A DNA stretch of 64,000 bases, taken from NCBI RefSeq assembly GCF_000160135.1, contig NZ_GG729934.1, positions 252,499-316,498 on the forward strand. The letters are read 5' to 3'. Below the pieces are notes generated by a model, which saw nothing but the letters and a program-made list of their open reading frames with translations, ran no database searches and had not been told where the DNA came from. Every line of letters begins with the position of its first letter. Position 1 is the stretch's first letter. This DNA comes from Oribacterium sp. oral taxon 078 str. F0262 (GTDB lineage: Bacteria > Bacillota > Clostridia > Lachnospirales > Lachnospiraceae). The translations under genes and the position numbers were made by a program. Below, piece after piece: positions 17,408 to 38,202 of this stretch.

Positions 17408-18853
17408 TCAATTCGTCTTCCTCCAGGTTCTGTGTGAAAACAGGATCAGCATGGGCAGGATCTCCAGTCGGCCCGCCAGCATGTCAAAGATCATGACGAG
17501 CTTTGAAAAATCCGAGTAGGCGGAAAAATTCCTCACAGGGCCCACCATGCCAAGCCCCGGTCCGATATTGTTGAAGGTGGCGGCGACCGCGGAGAAATTC
17601 GTCGTGAAATCGAAGCCGTCGAAGGAAATGAGAAAGACCGAGCTCATGAAGAGGAAGCAATAGAGAATCAGATAACAGTTCACCGATCGGACAATGGGGT
17701 GATCCAGGCTTTTTCCCTCCAGCCGTATCCTTCTCACAGCCTCCGGGTGTATGATGAGGTGCATTTCCTTCCCGATCTCCTTCCCCATGATGATGAGCCG
17801 CGAGACCTTTATCCCTCCCCCGGTGGATCCCGCGCAGGCTCCGCAGATCATGAGAAAAAGGAGAAGCATCTGGCAGGGCGCGGGCCAGAGATTAAAGTCC
17901 AGACTGGAAAAGCCCGTCGTCGTGATGATGGACCCCACGGTGAAGAAGGAGTGATGCAGAGCGTAGAGAAAGTCCCCTCCGCATTGCCGGAGGATCTGGA
18001 AGGCGATGAACAGCGTGGAGAAGGCGATGATGAGAAGGTAATATCTCGCCTCCTCCGAGTGGAGAGAATCCCGGAATCTCCTCTTCTGCATGAGATAATA
18101 GACATTGAAGTTCACCCCGAAGAGGATCATGAAGATCGTGATAAAGAACTGACTCAGCATGCTGTAGTCCGCCATGCCGCTGTTTCGAACCGCAAAGCCG
18201 CCGGTCCCCGCTGTTCCGAAGCCGATGCAGAGCGAATCGAAGAGGGGCATACCCGTCAGAAGAAAGACCGCGATCATCAGGACCGTCAGGGCGAGGTAGA
18301 TCTTATAGAGGGCCTTCGCGCTGTCCGCGACTCTCGGGACCATCTTGCTCACATCGGGGCCCGGGGACTCGGCCTTCATGATCATCAGATTATAGCCGCC
18401 TCCCAGAGGGAGGATGGTGAGCACCAGCACGAGGACTCCCATTCCGCCGATCCAGTGGGAGAAGGAGCGCCAGAAAAGGAGCCCCTTCCCGAGGAACTCC
18501 ACATCCCCGAGGATGGAGGAACCCGTCGTCGTAAAGCCGGAAACGATCTCAAAGACCGCATCCACATAGCGCGGGATCCTCCCGCTCAGAAAAAAGGGGA
18601 GCGCCCCGACCAGGGAGAGGACGATCCAGCAGCCCGCGACGGCCACAAAGCCCTCTCTGGCATAAAAGGCGGTCCTCCGCGGCTTTTTAAAGCCGAGTAT
18701 GGTTCCGAAAATCCCTGAGAGGAGGGCGACCAGAAGGATGGGAACGGCACTTTGCTCCCGGTAGATGAGTGAGATAAGGAGAGGAAGGAGCAAAGACAGC
18801 GCCTCGATCTTCAGAACCCACGCGAGAATATAGACTATCATTCCGAAATTCAT
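17408..18853 (-). CDS. trkH: Potassium uptake protein, TrkH/KtrB family
   Basis: The membrane subunit of a Trk/Ktr potassium transporter, 481 residues with repeated membrane-pore-membrane units. Pore-loop glycine motifs are seen in SGFTTTGSSIL, GTAGTGGFAVRNSG, ITTTGFSS and NNIGPGLG. It is transcribed after trkA, 18 nt away, and the two should form a channel gated by nucleotide binding. An 82-bp part of this gene (18299-18380) recurs at 90% identity at 35672-35753. Confidence 0.93.
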   Translation of the reverse strand: MNFGMIVYILAWVLKIEALSLLLPLLISLIYREQSAVPILLVALLSGIFGTILGFKKPRRTAFYAREGFVAVAGCWIVLSLVGALPFFLSGRIPRYVDAVFEIVSGFTTTGSSILGDVEFLGKGLLFWRSFSHWIGGMGVLVLVLTILPLGGGYNLMIMKAESPGPDVSKMVPRVADSAKALYKIYLALTVLMIAVFLLTGMPLFDSLCIGFGTAGTGGFAVRNSGMADYSMLSQFFITIFMILFGVNFNVYYLMQKRRFRDSLHSEEARYYLLIIAFSTLFIAFQILRQCGGDFLYALHHSFFTVGSIITTTGFSSLDFNLWPAPCQMLLLFLMICGACAGSTGGGIKVSRLIIMGKEIGKEMHLIIHPEAVRRIRLEGKSLDHPIVRSVNCYLILYCFLFMSSVFLISFDGFDFTTNFSAVAATFNNIGPGLGMVGPVRNFSAYSDFSKLVMIFDMLAGRLEILPMLILFSHRTWRKTN

Positions 18854-29940: not shown

Positions 29941-32900
29941 TTACTCCTCCAGCTGGTCCTGCACAAGGTCCACGGATACCAGGGTCGATACCCCCTTCTC
30001 CTGCATGGTGATGCCAAAGAGCCGGTCGGCCCGCTCCATCGTCCCTCTTCTATGGGTGATGACAATGAACTGGGTCTTATCCGTAAGACGGTTCAGGTAC
30101 TCCGCAAAGCGGATGACATTGGAATCGTCCAGCGCAGCCTCGATCTCATCCAGAAGACAGAAGGGGGAGGGCTTCAGACTTTGCAGGGCAAAAAGGAGCG
30201 ATATGGCGGTGAGAGCCTTCTCTCCTCCAGAGAGCTGCATCATGTTCTGGAGCTTCTTCCCCGGCGGCTCCGCGATGACATTGATCCCCGCCGTAAGGAC
30301 ATCCGGGTCCTCCGGATCCAGCGAGAGCTTCCCCTGTCCTCCCCCGAAAAGCACGCGGAAGACCTCGTCGAATTTGAGCTGGATCTTCGAGAAGTTCTCT
30401 CGAAACTGCCTGCGCATCCCGCTGTCCAGATCGCGGATGATCTTTGTGAGGCTCTCCTCCGAGCTCACAAGATCCTGATACTGTCTGTCCAAAAAGCTGT
30501 GACGCTCGGAGATCTCCTTGTACTGTTCGATCGCATCGAGATTGACGGAACCGAGGGCTCGGATTCCGGTTTTCAGGCGGTTCACTCCGGCCCGAAGCTC
30601 CTTTGTGTCGGGGAACTCCGGGGAGTAGCGCTCCTTCGCGCCCTGGTAGCTCAGATCGTATTCCTCGAGCATATAGCTTGTCAGGCTCTCAATCCGCTGC
30701 TCCTGCTTCTCCCTCTTATTCTGGACGCGGAGCGCCTCCTTTTCCATGAGAAGCAGGCGCTCGGACAGGGCATCCTTCCTGCCAAAGAAGCTGCTCCGTT
30801 CCGAGAGGATCTCTTCCTTTCTCTGCTCGGAAAGAGAGAGCTCCTTCTCTAAAAGAATCTTCTTTTTCTCCGTATTCTCGATGAGAGAGCAAAGCTCCTC
30901 TATCCTCTCCTCCCTTTCCCTGGCCTTCCTTCCGAAGCTCTCCTCTGAATCCTCAATCCCCGCCCTCTCCTCGAACAGCCTCCCGAGCTGATCGCTCAGT
31001 CGGTTCAGATTCTCCGTCACAAGATCCGTCCTCGCGGAAAGAGTGCTGTATTCTGTGTTGATCTCCGAAGCGATGCCAAGAGAGCTGGTGTTTCTCTCAA
31101 GCTCCAGTCTGCGAAGCTCCTCCTCCAGCCGGAGAAGTCTCTCCCCGCTTTGACGGAGCTCCTCCTGAGAATGGGTCCTTTTCTCCGAGAGCCTTGCGAG
31201 CTCCTCCTCCGTCTGCTTCAGTCTTTCCGAGAGCTCGGAGAGCTCCCTCCTCCGCCCAACGAGATTGGAACTGTTCCGATAGGCCCCTCCGGAGATGGAG
31301 CCCCCCGGATTTAAGAGCTCCCCCTCCAAAGTGACGATGCGGATGCTCTGATGATATTTCCTCGCGATCGAAAGCGCGTTCTCCATCCGGTCCACGATGA
31401 GGATCCGCCCCAGGAGATAATCCAGAAGCCCCCGGTAGCGCTCTTCAGAGTGAACGAGCTCGCTTCCGAGTCCGAGCGCGCCCTTCTCCTCCCTTGCCCT
31501 TAAGCAGTTTTCATCCCTCCTGCTCCGAAGATTCGGAAGGGGGAGAAAGGTCGCCCTCCCGAGACGGTTTTTCTTCAGGTAATCGACCATCTCCTTCGCT
31601 GTGGCCTCGTCCCCCGTCACAATATTCTGGAGGGCTCCGGCGAGCGCGGTCTCCACCGCGGTCTCGTACTGCCCCGGGACATCCAGAAGCTCCGATACCA
31701 CACCGAGAATGCCGGGGCAGGTCTTTCTTTTTTCCATGACGGATTTTACCGCGTGCCCGTAGCCCTCATAGCGCTCTGCGAGATTTCGGAGAAGCTCGAG
31801 CTGATTTTTCTCCCGATCCCTCTCCCGGATCTTGTCCTGAAAAAGGCGCTGTCCCTCCTCGAATTGCCTTCGAAGCGCTGCCTCCTCTCCCCTCTTCTCC
31901 CTCCGCTCCGCTTCGAGAGCTTCCTGCCTTTTTGTGAGCTCCTCGAGTTCTCTTTGCTTTTCCTCAAGCTTATGGAGGAAAGCATCGGACTTTCCGGGGA
32001 GCGCCTTCTCCGCCTCCCGGATCGGGCGCTCTTCGAGAGAATAGTCCGCTCCCATGCAGGAGCTGACGACGGATCTCGCCCCCTTGAGACTCGCATCGAT
32101 CAGACTGAGATCCAGCTCGATATTCTCCGGCTCCGCTTCCTTTCCGCAGCTCTCCCGGATAAAGGCAATCTGCTTTCGGATAAAAAGAAGTACGGAGACG
32201 GCGTCCTCAATCCCCGCGATTCTCTCGAATTCCTCCTTCTTCAGCGCGGCGATTCTCTCCCGGAAATGGCTCTTTTCGCTTTCCCCGCTTCTCATCTGTT
32301 CCCGCAGCAGCTCGACCTGACCGAGGAGCTCCGTTTTCAAAAGCTCCGACTTTGAGAGCTCGCTTCGGCCCTTTGCGAGCATTTCCTCCAGCTCCCTTTG
32401 CTTTTCCTCGATCTCTTTATATTTTTTCGCGAGCTCCTCGGATTCCGCCCGGACGGAGGCGAGCTCTGCCTGCACATTCTCCTCGTTCTCCGAGGAATCC
32501 GCGAGCTCCTTCGATGCGGCATCCATTTCCCGAAGAAACAGGTTTGCCTCATAGAGAATCAGCTGATCTCTGAGAGAGAGATACTGCTTCGCCTGCTCGG
32601 ACTGCTTCCGGAGCGGCTCCATCTGACGGCCAAGCTCGTTCAGGATGTCTGTGACCCGCTGGAGATTCAGCTGCTCCTCCCCGAGCTTCCGCTCCGCGAC
32701 ATCCTTCCTTCTCTTATATTTCACGATCCCGACCGCCTCGTCGAAAAGGGCCCTCCTCTCCTCGGCCCTGCCGGAGAGAATCTTGTCGATCTGCCCCTGG
32801 CCGATGATGGAGTAGCCCTCCTTCCCGATCCCGGTATCATAGAAAAGCTCATTGATATCCTTCAGGCGGCAGTCCGTTCCATTCAAAAGATATTCGGACT

Positions 32901-33225
32901 CCCCGGAGCGGTAGATCCGCCTCGTCACCGTGAGCTCATCATAGTCCAGATTCAGCGCGTGGTCGGCGTTGTCGAGCGTGATGCTGACATAGGCGTAGCT
33001 CTGGGGCTTTCTCTTCTGTGTGCCGGAGAAGATGACATCCTGCATGGAGGCTCCCCGGAGCTGCTTGATCTTCTGCTCTCCCAGTACCCAGCGAACGGCA
33101 TCGGAGATATTGGATTTTCCGGAACCGTTCGGTCCGACGATCCCGGTGACACCGCGGGAAAAGTCCAGCTCCGTCTTATTGGCAAAGGACTTAAAGCCCT
33201 GAATCTCAATGGATTTTAAATACAT
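29941..33225 (-). CDS. smc: Chromosome segregation ATPase SMC
   Basis: The condensin ATPase that organises the chromosome, 1094 residues against about 1186 in Bacillus subtilis. Walker A GPNGSGKS is at 31-38, the hinge at about 503-650, the signature LSGGEK at 998-1003, and Walker B with LLDEIEAALDD at about 1024-1034, so the protein is complete. The N-terminal arm is about 330 residues and the C-terminal arm about 240; residues 335-415 of the N-arm do not look like coiled coil and probably loop out. It overlaps rnc by 20 bp. Confidence 0.96.
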   Translation of the reverse strand: MYLKSIEIQGFKSFANKTELDFSRGVTGIVGPNGSGKSNISDAVRWVLGEQKIKQLRGASMQDVIFSGTQKRKPQSYAYVSITLDNADHALNLDYDELTVTRRIYRSGESEYLLNGTDCRLKDINELFYDTGIGKEGYSIIGQGQIDKILSGRAEERRALFDEAVGIVKYKRRKDVAERKLGEEQLNLQRVTDILNELGRQMEPLRKQSEQAKQYLSLRDQLILYEANLFLREMDAASKELADSSENEENVQAELASVRAESEELAKKYKEIEEKQRELEEMLAKGRSELSKSELLKTELLGQVELLREQMRSGESEKSHFRERIAALKKEEFERIAGIEDAVSVLLFIRKQIAFIRESCGKEAEPENIELDLSLIDASLKGARSVVSSCMGADYSLEERPIREAEKALPGKSDAFLHKLEEKQRELEELTKRQEALEAERREKRGEEAALRRQFEEGQRLFQDKIRERDREKNQLELLRNLAERYEGYGHAVKSVMEKRKTCPGILGVVSELLDVPGQYETAVETALAGALQNIVTGDEATAKEMVDYLKKNRLGRATFLPLPNLRSRRDENCLRAREEKGALGLGSELVHSEERYRGLLDYLLGRILIVDRMENALSIARKYHQSIRIVTLEGELLNPGGSISGGAYRNSSNLVGRRRELSELSERLKQTEEELARLSEKRTHSQEELRQSGERLLRLEEELRRLELERNTSSLGIASEINTEYSTLSARTDLVTENLNRLSDQLGRLFEERAGIEDSEESFGRKAREREERIEELCSLIENTEKKKILLEKELSLSEQRKEEILSERSSFFGRKDALSERLLLMEKEALRVQNKREKQEQRIESLTSYMLEEYDLSYQGAKERYSPEFPDTKELRAGVNRLKTGIRALGSVNLDAIEQYKEISERHSFLDRQYQDLVSSEESLTKIIRDLDSGMRRQFRENFSKIQLKFDEVFRVLFGGGQGKLSLDPEDPDVLTAGINVIAEPPGKKLQNMMQLSGGEKALTAISLLFALQSLKPSPFCLLDEIEAALDDSNVIRFAEYLNRLTDKTQFIVITHRRGTMERADRLFGITMQEKGVSTLVSVDLVQDQLEE

Positions 33226-33910
33226 ATCCGCTCTCCGCCTTGATCTTTAGTAAAGCCTGGTACGCCGCCGCCTGCTCCGCCTTTTTCTTGGAGGAGCCTT
33301 CGCCTCTTCCGTATTCTTTCTCCTCGATGAGCGCGGAAACCCGGTAGAAGCGTTCGTGGCAGGGACCGCTCTCCTCCAGGAGAGCATAGCGAAGAGAAAG
33401 GCGCTGCTTGGAGACATACTCCTGAAGCATCGTCTTTGCATCCCGATAAAGGCTCTTGTTCTCGATGTCGGAGAGCACCAGTCTTTTGATAAAGCACTGC
33501 GCTGCGGAGAAGCCGCCGTCCAGATAGATCGCGCCGATCACGGCCTCGAAGGCATCGGAGAGCACGGAATCCCGAAGCTGAATCCCCTCCCGGCCCTCTC
33601 CCCTCCCCAGGACAAGATAGTCTCCCAGGGAGAGCTTCCTCGCGGCCTCCGCGAGCGTCGGTTCACAGACAAGCGCGGCCCGGAGCTTCGTCATGACGCC
33701 CTCCTGGATCACCGGCACTCTATGGTAGAGGAAGTCACTTGCGGCCAGCTCCAGCACCGCGTCTCCCAGAAATTCCAGCCGCTGATTGGACGCCTCCTTC
33801 GGATCCCCCTGTTCATTGGAATAGGAGGGATGCGTGAGAGCATGGAGAAGAAGTTCGCGGTCCCGGAAGGAATAGGCTAATTTTTCTTCCAAAAGAGAAA
33901 GCCTATCCAT
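33206..33910 (-). CDS. rnc: Ribonuclease III
   Basis: Cleaves double-stranded RNA in rRNA and mRNA processing. The 234-residue product has the catalytic signature NQRLEFLGDAVLEL, the second acidic cluster SDAFEAVIGAIYLDGG and a C-terminal double-stranded RNA-binding domain (GEGSSKKKAEQAAAYQALL). It overlaps acpP by 8 bp and smc by 20 bp. Confidence 0.96.
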   Translation of the reverse strand: MDRLSLLEEKLAYSFRDRELLLHALTHPSYSNEQGDPKEASNQRLEFLGDAVLELAASDFLYHRVPVIQEGVMTKLRAALVCEPTLAEAARKLSLGDYLVLGRGEGREGIQLRDSVLSDAFEAVIGAIYLDGGFSAAQCFIKRLVLSDIENKSLYRDAKTMLQEYVSKQRLSLRYALLEESGPCHERFYRVSALIEEKEYGRGEGSSKKKAEQAAAYQALLKIKAESGYVFKIH

Positions 33911-34148
33911 CCACCTCTCCCGTCGCTTTCCGGATCGCTTCTGCGGCCTCTCCGACGGTCCGGATCTTCTCCGCGGCGTCCTCCGGGATCTCGATTCCGA
34001 ACTCCTCCTCGATCGCCATTACGATCTGCACGACATCCAGAGAATCCGCCCCGAGATCCTCGACGAAGCGGCTTTCCATGTGAATCTCCGTTTCCGTTCC
34101 GAGATTCATCTCCTTCTGAATGATCTTCTTCAGCTTTTCCAGTTCCAT
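33903..34148 (-). CDS. acpP: Acyl carrier protein
   Basis: An 81-residue carrier of fatty-acid synthesis. The phosphopantetheine attachment serine is residue 36 in GADSLDVVQ. It follows plsX by 3 bp, as expected for the fatty-acid/phospholipid pair plsX-acpP. Confidence 0.97.
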   Translation of the reverse strand: MELEKLKKIIQKEMNLGTETEIHMESRFVEDLGADSLDVVQIVMAIEEEFGIEIPEDAAEKIRTVGEAAEAIRKATGEVDG

Positions 34149-34151
34149 CTT

Positions 34152-35195
34152 TTATCCTTTCTCCTCTTCCCGATCCGGGAGCGCCTCTTCGCTTTTCTCC
34201 GCCAAAAGACTTCTCTCGATCTTCCCAACGATATCCCTTCGGCAAAAGTCCGCGCACTGTCTGACAGCGTGCTTTAGCTCCGTACCATCCGTGTTGCCGT
34301 GCACCTTTACGACGAGCCCCTTCAGTCCGAGAATCGGCGCGCCGCCGTAGCGCTTTGCATCGAATTTAGAGAGCCCCTTTTTCAGGCTTTTCTGAATCAA
34401 GGCTGCGCCGAGCAGGGTGATGGGACCGCTCTGCTTCAGACAATCCTTAATTTCTGTGAGGAGCATCTTTCCGACTCCCTCATACATCTTTAAGACGACA
34501 TTCCCGACGAAGGCGTCCGCGACAACGACATCGCAGCTTCCCTCCACGATATCCCTTGCCTCGACGGAGCCCTGAAAATGGAGCTCCTCATCCGCTCTGA
34601 GAAGAGGCATCGCCTCCTTCACCAGCCGATTTCCCTTCTCCTCCTCCGCGCCGATATTCACAAGTCCGACCGAAGGCCTCTCGATGCCGAGCATCTCCCG
34701 GAGATAAATGCTTCCCATTTTTGCAAACTGCAAAAGCCATTCCGGACTCGCGTCCACATTGGCCCCGCAGTCCGTGAGGAGACAGACCCCTCTCCTCGTC
34801 GGAATCAGCGCAGCGAGGGGCGGCCGGTAAATGCCGCGGATCCTCCCGACGATCAGCTGGGCTCCCGCAAGGATTGCCCCGGAGGATCCGGCGGAGATCA
34901 GCGCATCCGCCTTCCCCTCCTTTACAAACTGCATTCCCCTCACAATAGAGGAATCCTTCTTTCTCCGGATCGCAAGCACCGGGGACTCGTGAAGAGAGAT
35001 CACATCCTCCGCATTGACAAGCTCCACCCGCTCCCCGTCGAAGGAATACTGCGAAAGCAAAGCGGAAATCCTCTCCTTCGGTCCGAAAAGGAAAAGTTTC
35101 GTGTCCTCCGTCTCCCCGAGGGACTCGATGGCCCCCTTTACGATGGCCTCCGGAGACTCATCTCCTCCCATCGCATCGATCGCAACTTTGATCAT
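34152..35195 (-). CDS. plsX: Phosphate acyltransferase PlsX
   Basis: Makes acyl phosphate from acyl-ACP as the first step of membrane phospholipid synthesis; 347 residues. The N-terminal IDAMGGD and the segment LLTDCGANVDASPEWLLQFA are diagnostic. The ATG at 35195 has GGGAG upstream and a 17-bp hairpin (35208-35224) just before it. The usual preceding rpmF and DUF177 genes are missing; in their place is a long non-coding repeat-rich region. Confidence 0.95.
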   Translation of the reverse strand: MIKVAIDAMGGDESPEAIVKGAIESLGETEDTKLFLFGPKERISALLSQYSFDGERVELVNAEDVISLHESPVLAIRRKKDSSIVRGMQFVKEGKADALISAGSSGAILAGAQLIVGRIRGIYRPPLAALIPTRRGVCLLTDCGANVDASPEWLLQFAKMGSIYLREMLGIERPSVGLVNIGAEEEKGNRLVKEAMPLLRADEELHFQGSVEARDIVEGSCDVVVADAFVGNVVLKMYEGVGKMLLTEIKDCLKQSGPITLLGAALIQKSLKKGLSKFDAKRYGGAPILGLKGLVVKVHGNTDGTELKHAVRQCADFCRRDIVGKIERSLLAEKSEEALPDREEEKG

Positions 35196-35247
35196 AAAAA
35201 ACTCCCATGCCGGAATACCCGGCATCCATAAACATAAGCTTTTGTAA

Positions 35248-35332
35248 GACTCGGCTTCGCCCGGGAGGCACTTCTCTTCAAGAAGACTCAAGTACGCTCC
35301 GAGTCTGCCTGATGGCAGACTTCTGCACTTAC
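35248..35332. repeat. Structured intergenic repeat, copy A
   Basis: An 85-bp copy sharing its first 23 nt and a 37-nt 3' block exactly with copy B. The ends GACTCGG (35248-35254) and CCGAGTC (35299-35305) can pair, and GTCTGCC/GGCAGAC (35303-35309 with 35314-35320) forms a further hairpin. It lacks one internal hairpin present in copy B. Confidence 0.8.
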
Positions 35333-35449
35333 ATACTAGGGAAATGGTCGTGACAGGGTTGCGAATGCCGCCCTTGCCGTTTTGTCCGTCTGCGCACAGG
35401 CCGTCTGCCGCCCCGGCGTTTAGCGATTTGGTCTTTTAAATCGCTTAAG

Positions 35450-35560
35450 GACTCGGCTTCGCCCGGGAGGCATCAGCCGATCTCCCTTCGGGAGACACTT
35501 CTCTTCGAGAAGTGGTCAAGTACGCTCCGAGTCTGCCTGATGGCAGACTTCTACGCTTAC
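35450..35560. repeat. Structured intergenic repeat, copy B
   Basis: A 111-bp copy. An outer 7-bp stem GACTCGG/CCGAGTC (35450-35456 with 35527-35533) encloses perfect small hairpins TCTCCC-ttc-GGGAGA (35481-35495) and CACTTCTC-ttc-GAGAAGTG (35496-35514); GTCTGCC-tgat-GGCAGAC follows. The extra hairpin relative to copy A looks like an insertion of a stem-loop unit. Confidence 0.8.
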
Positions 35561-35671
35561 GCGCCGCTGGCCGCGGCAGTCGGAGCGAGAGCGTCCTGTG
35601 CCGGGCGGGCAAAAGGCAGAAGAAGCGGTGTCCCTGCGTACTCATACCTCTTGTCTCGTCAAATGCCGAAA

Positions 35672-35753
35672 GATCTTATAGAGGGCCTTCGCGCTATCCG
35701 CGCCTCTCGGGACCATCTTGCTCACAGCGGTTCCCAGGGATTCGGCCTTCCTG
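35672..35753 (-). pseudogene. Fragment of a trkH gene
   Basis: 82 bp with 74 identities (90%) to 18299-18380 inside trkH, in the same orientation. In the trkH frame it encodes SKMVPRGADSAKALYKIF where trkH has SKMVPRVADSAKALYKIY. The similarity stops sharply at both ends. It is flanked by 24-bp direct repeats. The surrounding open frame (35642-35980 on the - strand) does not continue any TrkH sequence, so this is a remnant or captured piece. Confidence 0.75.
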
Positions 35754-35931
35754 AGGATCCTCATCAAGTATAAGTCCACGCGCTGCTCCGCTTCTTTGAA
35801 GCTCCCGCATCGCTCACAGGTATTCGACAATCGCCCTGCTCGCAATGCTCGCATGGCTTTTTGTCTCATACCTCTTGTTCCGTCAAATATCCAAATGCTC
35901 CTGCAAGCAAGCTTGCTCCGCATTTGTCTGC

Positions 35932-35980
35932 TTGACGGAGACTTATACAGTACTATAGTAAATTCCAAAGAAGCCGTCAA
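35932..35980. promoter_or_regulatory. Two opposed promoters sharing a palindromic -10 box
   Basis: + strand: TTGACG (35932-35937), 16-bp spacer, TATAGT (35954-35959). - strand: TTGACG (35975-35980), 17-bp spacer, TATAGT (35952-35957). Both -10 boxes sit in the palindrome TACTATAGTA (35951-35960). The - promoter faces plsX; the + promoter faces the terminator at 36002. Confidence 0.55.
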
Positions 35981-36036
35981 CCGTCCTTATTCCGCACAGG
36001 GGAGAGGGGCGCGGGTTTCCGCGCCCCTCTCTTTTT
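35966..36036 (+). ncRNA. Candidate ~70-nt small RNA
   Basis: The + strand promoter at 35932-35959 predicts a start near 35966, and a perfect intrinsic terminator ends at about 36036, with no open frame between. This is inference from promoter and terminator signals alone. Confidence 0.3.
36002..36036 (+). terminator. Strong intrinsic terminator (+ strand)
   Basis: A 13-bp perfect GC-rich stem (36002-36014 with 36019-36031) with a 4-nt loop and TTTTT at 36032-36036. The T-run is on the + strand only. The same hairpin lies 28 nt after the EF-G-like stop on the - strand, where it has no T-run. Confidence 0.85.
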
Positions 36037-36063
36037 CGGAGCTCTGCCAGGAGAGGCTTCCGC

Positions 36064-38160
36064 CTATTCCTGTGCCTTTGCCTCTTCCGCTTCCGCGACG
36101 AGCTGGTTCTGAATATCTCCCGGCGTCTGCTCATAGCGCACAAATTCGTACTCGTAGATGCCGCTTCCCCCCGTCATGGAGCGAAGATCCGTATTGTAGC
36201 CGTAGAGATTGCTCATCGGAAGCTCCGCCTCGATGCACTGCTTTCCGCCGTGCAGGGCATTCATGCCGAGCACTCTTCCACGCCGCTTCGTGAGGTCTCC
36301 CATGATATCCCCCGTATTGGAATCCGGGACCGTGACCTTCAAGGACACGATCGGCTCCAGGAGGACAGGCTGCGCCTGCATGAAGCCATCCTTAAAGGCG
36401 AGGCTCGCGGCGGTCTTGAAGGCCTGCTCGGAGGAGTCCACCGGATGATAGGAGCCGTCCAGGAGCACTGCCTTCAGCCCGACCACAGGATAACCGGCGA
36501 GCGGTCCCTTTTTGCAGGATTCCTGAATCCCCTTCTCGACCGCGGGGAAGTAGTTCTTCGGGACGGAGCCCCCGAAGACCTTCTCCTCAAAGACATAGGC
36601 CTTCTCATTGTCCCCGCTGGGGGAGAACTCCATGATGACATCCCCGTACTGCCCGTGCCCTCCGGACTGCTTTTTATAGCGGCCCTGGACCTTCACCGCC
36701 TTTTTGATGGTTTCCCGGTAGGCAAAGCGGGGCTTTTCGAGGAGCAGGGCCGCATTATAGCGCTCCCGGATCTTGGACTGAACCACCTCGAGCTGCTGCT
36801 CCCCGATGCCGTAGAGAAGGGCCTGGCGATTCTCCGGATCCGGAGCGGTCCGAAGCGTCCGATCCTCCTCCATCATCCGGGAAAGAGCCGTGGAGATCTT
36901 GTCCTCATCGGCCTTGTTTTCCGCGCGATAGGCCATATAGGTATAGGGTGTCGGGAAATGCGGGCCGTGGTAGAGGACGGGGGCATTTCTCACCGCAATG
37001 CTGTCTCCCGTTTCCGTGACGCTGAGCTTTGCGACAGCGCCGATATCCCCCGCGCGGAGCTCGGGGACCTCGATGGCCTCACTCCCCCGGAGGATATAGA
37101 GCTTTCCGACCTTCTCCATGCTCTCCCGGTTTACATTGTAGATCTCAGAGCTCTGGCGGAGCGTCCCGGTGCAGATCTTCATGAGGCTGTACTTCCCCAT
37201 GAAGGGATCGACGATGGTCTTAAAGACCTTGGCGCTCAGAGAGGCCTCGGGATTGAACTTCGCGCTGAAGTGCTCCCCGGAGGAGGCATCCACTCCCATC
37301 GTCTCGGATTCGTTTGGAGCCGGGAAATACTTCTCGATGATCTGAAGGAGGACGTTAAAGCCCTGGGCATGGATGCCGGAGCCCATCAGGACGGGGGCAA
37401 TGCTGCAGGTTCTGACATTTTCCTTCAGCGCATTCTGGATCTCCTCTATCGTAAACTCCTCCCCGGAGAAGTATTTCTCCATATACTCGTCGGAGGTCTC
37501 CGCTACCGCCTCCAGGAGGGCGCTTCTTGCGATGCCGAGATTTTTCTGAACATAGTCCGGGATATCGCAGGCCTCGTACTCATTTTTCTTCGTGAAGCGG
37601 CGGCCCGCCATCTTTACGACATTGACAAAGCCGACGAATTTCTCGTTCTCGCGGATCGGAAGCTGGAAGGGGGCGACGGAGCGGCCGAAGCGCTTCTCCA
37701 GGTCCAGTACGAGCTGACGGAAGGAGGCATGGTCATCATCCATATTTGTGACAAAGAAGAGTCTCGGAAGCTTCTCTCTCTCGCAGAGCTCCCAGGCCTT
37801 CACGGTTCCGGGCTCGATGCCGGCCTTGCAGTTTACGACGATGACTGCGGCGTCGGCGGCGGAGACCGCCTCCTCCACCTCACCCACAAAGTCGAAGTAT
37901 CCCGGGCTGTCCAGGATATTGATCTTGTACTCGCCCTTTTCCCCCTTGTATTCAATCGGAATGAGGGAAGTGGAGATCGAGAACTTCCGCCTCTTCTCCT
38001 CCTTCTCATAATCGGAAATCGTATTTCCGTCCGGAACGGTTCCCATTCTCTGGATCGTCCCCGTCACATAGGCGAGAGCCTCCGCGACTGTGGTCTTTCC
38101 CGCCCCGCCGTGGCCCAAGAGAATTACATTCCGAATGCTTCCGGTGTCATAAACCTTCAT
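36064..38160 (-). CDS. Elongation factor G paralogue (translational GTPase)
   Basis: A 698-residue EF-G-type GTPase with all five EF-G domains by length. The P-loop is GHGGAGKT (residues 16-23) in place of the AHIDAGKT of the main EF-G, and the NKxD motif has become TNMDDD, both marks of the EF-G-like paralogue group widespread in Firmicutes. DSPGYFDF is the G3 motif. The ATG at 38160 has AGGAGGGAAAGAGGAT upstream. It stands alone with its own promoter and is not next to rpsL-rpsG-tuf. Its task is not established. Confidence 0.88.
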   Translation of the reverse strand: MKVYDTGSIRNVILLGHGGAGKTTVAEALAYVTGTIQRMGTVPDGNTISDYEKEEKRRKFSISTSLIPIEYKGEKGEYKINILDSPGYFDFVGEVEEAVSAADAAVIVVNCKAGIEPGTVKAWELCEREKLPRLFFVTNMDDDHASFRQLVLDLEKRFGRSVAPFQLPIRENEKFVGFVNVVKMAGRRFTKKNEYEACDIPDYVQKNLGIARSALLEAVAETSDEYMEKYFSGEEFTIEEIQNALKENVRTCSIAPVLMGSGIHAQGFNVLLQIIEKYFPAPNESETMGVDASSGEHFSAKFNPEASLSAKVFKTIVDPFMGKYSLMKICTGTLRQSSEIYNVNRESMEKVGKLYILRGSEAIEVPELRAGDIGAVAKLSVTETGDSIAVRNAPVLYHGPHFPTPYTYMAYRAENKADEDKISTALSRMMEEDRTLRTAPDPENRQALLYGIGEQQLEVVQSKIRERYNAALLLEKPRFAYRETIKKAVKVQGRYKKQSGGHGQYGDVIMEFSPSGDNEKAYVFEEKVFGGSVPKNYFPAVEKGIQESCKKGPLAGYPVVGLKAVLLDGSYHPVDSSEQAFKTAASLAFKDGFMQAQPVLLEPIVSLKVTVPDSNTGDIMGDLTKRRGRVLGMNALHGGKQCIEAELPMSNLYGYNTDLRSMTGGSGIYEYEFVRYEQTPGDIQNQLVAEAEEAKAQE

Positions 38161-38202
38161 ATCCTCTTTCCCTCCTGTCGTCGAGCTCATTAAACTATGC
38201 CT

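Follow-up and report, generated by a model that had tools for sequence, protein, structure and literature searches.

Two near-consensus promoters on opposite strands share one palindromic -10 region upstream of plsX in the window, that is, the whole 64-kb stretch of Oribacterium DNA that was analysed. We think it rather probable that they make up a bidirectional promoter formed at the junction of the conserved promoter of the plsX operon and a copy of the Clostridiales-1 RNA repeat (RF01699), and that the RNA running rightward from it is a by-product. Judging from these elements, the promoter probably fires in both directions, and it would do so because RF01699 adjoins it. Its parts are the following.

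35951-35960, no strand: palindromic shared -10 region, TACTATAGTA, the sole copy within the window
35980-35975, minus strand: -35 box TTGACG of the plsX promoter (promoter scan, weight matrix; counterparts in 13 of 14 congeners)
35957-35952, minus strand: -10 box TATAGT of the plsX promoter (promoter scan, weight matrix)
35932-35937, plus strand: -35 box TTGACG of the plus promoter, inside the RF01699 repeat and the complement of its first helix arm
35954-35959, plus strand: -10 box TATAGT of the plus promoter, outside the RF01699 repeat; predicted start 35966

A previous sequence-only reading had proposed good promoters on both strands around this palindrome, and the scan bears this out. Each matches the consensus at 10 of 12 bases, with spacers of 16 nt (plus) and 17 nt (minus), and the scores are 11.7 for the plus promoter and 12.7 for the minus promoter on a weight matrix. 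Scanning of 34800-37200 listed these two sites alone (shuffles 0.8 ± 0.9). Over the whole window, a score of at least 11.7 was reached at 6 of about 128,000 positions, both promoters being among those six; they form the sole pair with a shared -10 at score 11.7 in the 64 kb, and none was obtained in 40 Markov-1 sequences. The -10 hexamers of the opposite strands overlap, as is expected of a bidirectional promoter with a shared -10, and the earlier statement that only one polymerase at a time can sit there agrees with this overlap. The promoters had also been described as lying face to face, which has to be reversed: both -35 boxes stand outside the shared -10, so the RNAs diverge, with predicted starts at 35945 (minus, placed 7 nt past the -10) and 35966 (plus), 21 bp apart. 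As far as the boxes tell, the arrangement is that of a divergent bidirectional promoter, a known class.

Bidirectional promoters have been defined by divergent starts 7-25 bp apart (PMC10268837, citing Warman et al. 2021). As described in the cited parts of PMC10268837 and PMC12825309, those of bacteria resemble the present one in the near-symmetric shared -10, and the predicted 21 bp falls within 7-25 bp. Unlike them, the present site has a near-consensus -35 in both directions, one of them coming from a repeat, and it is known from sequence alone. The layout itself is not rare: this genome has a single TTGAC-TATA-GTCAA site, the present one, and no site of its control (the same pattern read backwards), and over 61 genomes the counts are 32 forward vs 31 control, both being sums of a table. 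There is no enrichment, so that one such site per genome is close to chance, and this fits the by-product reading.

The genes on both sides of the promoter are these.

34152-35195, minus strand: plsX, first gene of the operon (TIGR00182, above cut-off)
33903-34148, downstream in the operon: acpP (TIGR00517, above cut-off)
29941-33225, downstream in the operon: smc (TIGR02168, above cut-off)
36064-38190, minus strand: elongation factor G (EF-G)-type gene, upstream neighbour of plsX (NF009381, 847.7 bits, cut-off 583)

Comparison with congeners was made in 14 of 16 genomes (G002 and G003 were left out for their short contigs). EF-G and plsX adjoin, with a gap below 500 nt, in 10 of these 14. A sense promoter scoring at least 10.5 is found upstream of plsX in 13 of them, with TTGAC in 12 of 14 and a spacing of 17 in 13 of 14; the exception is G005, in which the promoter scores 8.4 and plsX is far from EF-G. 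The earlier proposal that one promoter is directed towards plsX is strengthened by this conservation in 13 of 14 congeners, and we take the predicted minus promoter to be the conserved, ancestral plsX promoter. The antisense promoter on the shared -10 reaches at most 9.2 in the 14 congeners vs 11.7 here. The distance from the start of the -10 to the plsX ATG is about 49-172 nt in 13 of the 14 and 380 nt in G006; here it is 762 nt, which means that there is extra DNA directly past the -10. These distances are most simply read as an insertion of RF01699 and further repeats immediately downstream of the plsX promoter.

The leader contains the following elements.

35771-35945, minus strand: complete Clostridiales-1 RNA (RF01699), with which the plsX leader opens (Rfam)
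35671-35754, minus strand: copy of about 84 nt, 90% identical to a stretch inside a trkH-like gene (window 17408-18853)
35366-35628, minus strand: further leader repeats with many copies in the genome, part of them in tandem arrays (DNA search of the genome)

The 750-nt leader that had been proposed for plsX stands as to its length, from the predicted start 35945 to the ATG at 35195-35193. It is not a plain leader: RF01699 comes first, followed by a mosaic of other repeats. Region 35196-35770 gave 124 matches in this genome, itself counted, with 40 of 96 candidates scored. The best NCBIfam matches of the trkH-like gene are TrkH models, under their curated cut-offs. The captured piece of this gene keeps the same strand sense and is flanked by repeat elements. 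Segments of the leader within 35247-35628 come from other repeat families, and one repeat unit of about 110 nt forms tandem arrays elsewhere in the genome. A 112-aa open reading frame on the minus strand (35642-35980) was discarded as a gene; its matches are other repeat copies, many with stops, and the trkH-like piece. There is also a hairpin at 35207-35225 (ATGCCGG..CCGGCAT, minus strand) directly upstream of the GGGAG and TTTTTT of plsX, and it could affect plsX translation.

The RF01699 match covers the whole model (positions 1-166) with 87.3 bits vs a gathering score of 48, and base 1 of the model coincides with the predicted minus start 35945. This copy folds at -73.1 kcal/mol (z -7.0), and the consensus helices form, namely, the outer stem and CCGUCAA/UUGACGG, with some non-standard pairs marked in the alignment. 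Four RF01699 copies, the one in the window included, align from about 35950 inwards and show little likeness further out. Accordingly placed, the edge of the repeat near 35950 falls between the plus -35 (ending at 35937) and the plus -10 (from 35954), as in a fusion promoter. The CGTCAA arm is invariant in those four copies, and the plus -35 is complementary to the CCGUCAA arm of the CCGUCAA/UUGACGG helix.

A larger set of 15 copies of the subtype was selected with a motif filter (a TAAG-like start and TCA within 24 bases; L271 and L275 have the same flank). In this set the antisense hexamer is TTGAC in seven copies, CTGA in seven and TTGATA in one, and the helix arms are complementary in the predicted fold of each copy, with a single unpaired position in one; as the arms were taken from those same folds, there is a bias towards pairing. 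Since pairing persists through these changes of the antisense hexamer, the arm looks to be preserved as RNA structure and not as a -35.

RF01699 is abundant here, with 66 matches in this genome, 54 of them above the cut-off; a wider search of 61 genomes found a match in 29 and one above the cut-off in 20. Tandem arrays of four or five units occur in G000 (C12:694459-695220, C12:448293-449039, and C10:81831-82517). Weinberg et al. (2010, PMC2864571) rated the Clostridiales-1 motif as probably RNA and probably not cis-regulatory. The copy studied here agrees with the motif in PMC2864571 as a full-length match above the gathering score with the same structure; it differs in forming part of a housekeeping operon's 5' leader. 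No functional study of Clostridiales-1 RNA or RF01699 was found among the literature matches listed.

RF01699 edges in general were studied in 101 copies from 18 genomes, 37 of them from this one; these were the best-scoring matches listed and not a random draw, and the sample from this genome was drawn from the best 40 of its 66 matches. Assembly gave 106 copies, from which three internal to tandem arrays and two with a duplicate flank were left out. A sense promoter with its -10 adjoining RF01699 was found at 36 of the 101 edges, for which the controls were 1-4 in upstream windows, a mean of 5.7 and a maximum of 10 in flank shuffles, and 14-30 with wrong spacings. Going by these counts, RF01699 is probably transcribed from an adjacent promoter at many sites. 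Antisense (outward) promoters were found at 26 of 101 edges. None of 100 element shuffles went above 17 and none of 100 flank shuffles above 22, and the upstream controls gave 2-7. Wrong -35 spacings, however, produced 5-40, as many hits or more, and therefore outward promoters remain unproven as a selected property of RF01699 even though the shuffles fall short of the count. They show no preferred spacing at the 101 edges. We read the antisense excess as TTGAC-like helices beside AT-rich flanks and not as a selected promoter; outward firing from RF01699 edges may still be more than noise. With the score lowered to 7 and the ranges widened, 50 sense and 40 antisense promoters were counted at the 101 edges. 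Both directions score at least 8 at 14 of the 101 edges (17 with wider ranges), and one other edge, L253 in G018, has the full TTGAC-TATA-GTCAA layout. Of eight RF01699 sites queried in sister species, four aligned. At one of these the whole element is absent from three sister species; at each of the other three, a single sister species has lost internal parts or retains remnants, and no target duplication was found. RF01699 may well be mobile, though this is not proven.

On the rightward side, the features of interest are two.

35966-36041, plus strand: candidate short non-coding RNA, with a length of about 71-73 nt if the U-tract is its end (fold)
36002-36036: 13-bp GC hairpin and TTTTT, on the plus strand a terminator, on the minus strand a hairpin after the EF-G gene

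The hairpin GAGAGGGGCGCGG-GTTT-CCGCGCCCCTCTC occupies 36002-36031 and is followed by TTTTT at 36032-36036, 42 nt past the -10, in accordance with the plus-strand terminator that had been noticed before. It is absent from the list of our built-in terminator scan, possibly because the U-tract can also pair with an upstream G. The suggested RNA of about 70 nt is plausible: the predicted length is 71-73 nt, and the fold of 35966-36041 has -39 kcal/mol and z -4.9. A stable hairpin 3' of the EF-G stop codon, read from folds, is shared by this genome and 11 of the 14 congeners (it is interrupted in G011 and ambiguous in G006 and G012). The U-tract has 5 T in 8 on the plus side and 2 in 8 on the EF-G side, and this placement is the best argument that stopping a plus RNA matters here. 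Searching 61 genomes at the DNA level, 35967-36064 matched itself alone, in a search that left some candidates unscored and that distant relatives would escape. A small regulatory RNA would be recognised by conserved sequence or structure or by a demonstrated transcript, and this DNA search gave no conserved counterpart of 35967-36064. Rfam matches at the hairpin (STnc320, mir-9201, and CsrC) are all under their gathering scores, and a literature search for an Oribacterium small RNA together with a start site returned nothing.

The reading that we favour would work as follows. Leftward, the ancestral promoter of the plsX operon would transcribe the Clostridiales-1 RNA, the further repeats and plsX. 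Rightward, RF01699 would supply an outward TTGACG, complement of its own RNA helix, and the near-symmetric -10 of plsX would complete a fusion promoter. The rightward RNA would stop at the hairpin following the EF-G gene, which would keep it from running antisense into that gene, and it is most likely a non-coding by-product. Similar constructions are described in the cited parts of the literature on Correia elements (PMC9330008) and MITEAba12 (PMC6382973), in which the outward -35 lies in the repeat end and the -10 in the flank, and inverted-repeat ends stand beside TA-rich DNA. Unlike fusion promoters of insertion sequences and MITEs as presented there, the -35 of RF01699 belongs to an RNA helix, and we only infer the insertion of RF01699. 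The start sites, the activity and the lack of a dedicated role of the short RNA are likewise inferred, whereas the sequence shows the layout of the parts, the Rfam membership, the conservation of the leftward promoter and the position of the repeat edge between the plus -35 and the shared -10. Some observations go against our reading: the plus promoter falls only a little short of the minus one, and none of the Markov copies gave such a pair; the hairpin has a U-tract only on its plus side, as would suit a terminator made for a plus RNA; and antisense promoters at RF01699 edges exceed shuffles and upstream controls.

One alternative, which seems to us doubtful, is that transcription runs leftward only, from the plsX promoter, with the plus promoter a silent look-alike and the hairpin serving the EF-G gene alone. 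The minus promoter has the higher score, the ideal spacing of 17 and the conservation, a hairpin follows the EF-G gene in most congeners, and in the 61 genomes the two-way layout turns up about as often as its control, all of which agree with a silent plus side. Against it stand the 10 of 12 consensus bases and the permitted spacing of the plus promoter, and the absence of a U-tract on the EF-G side of the hairpin.

It had also been suggested that the short RNA could act as a switch on the plsX-acpP-smc operon. Here the rightward polymerase would exclude the leftward one, and the RNA or its synthesis would tune the operon. The shared -10 with two near-consensus promoters and the strong plus-side terminator speak in its favour, as do the five E. 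coli bidirectional promoters of PMC12825309, in the part cited here, for which strengthening one direction lowers the other. According to the same part, however, competition appears only then, the basal firing of the five being too low for it. Moreover, the plus promoter is not conserved in the 14 congeners (9.2 at most), the short RNA found no match but itself in 61 genomes, and the plus -35 is accounted for by the RNA helix. The switch is thus unlikely, in our opinion; a dedicated switch RNA is possible but unsupported. Mutual exclusion with the two TTGACG boxes of this site is possible, though unproven, and since both -35 boxes are good it should not be dismissed.

Quite unlikely, we think, is a more general role: as a structured RNA element with the mobility of a MITE, RF01699 would insert next to promoters and terminators and turn them into two-way sites. 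At plsX this would have given a working antagonistic promoter, with a terminated rightward RNA that tunes this lipid and chromosome-segregation operon. Finally, the palindrome could be the operator of a fatty-acid regulator, FapR for instance, and not a promoter feature, which we find very improbable: it is a perfect 10-bp palindrome in a lipid-gene promoter, but FapR (NF003359), the one regulator searched for, has no match in this genome (the control matched 5 of 14 named genomes, 1 above cut-off), and all 14 congeners have other sequences at the -10.

If the by-product reading holds, the transcription layout of an essential operon can be remodelled by an abundant structured RNA repeat: at plsX, a long structured leader runs one way and a fusion promoter points the other. 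RF01699 would also gain a testable property, since roughly one in three of the examined copies (36/101) has a housekeeping-type promoter next to its 5' end.

Further observations concern RF01699 and its congeneric surroundings. In one RF01699 subtype, with ends near CTGTATAAG..CTTATACAG, copies lie directly 3' of T-runs resembling intrinsic terminators (L028, L076, L077, L280, L287, and L292-L294). Gene orientation round 27 copies, assigned by longest open frames, was abandoned; the known EF-G neighbour was mis-assigned in GC-rich DNA. Another two-way site, TTGACAgaa..TATA..TGTCAA, is common to seven congeners (G004, G010, G011, G013, G014, G015, and G016; loci L351, L350, L352, L353, L355, L356, and L357), and may be a conserved bidirectional promoter or operator. 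At L351 it lies between a 428-aa open reading frame and one that, by its look, we take to be a solute-binding lipoprotein.
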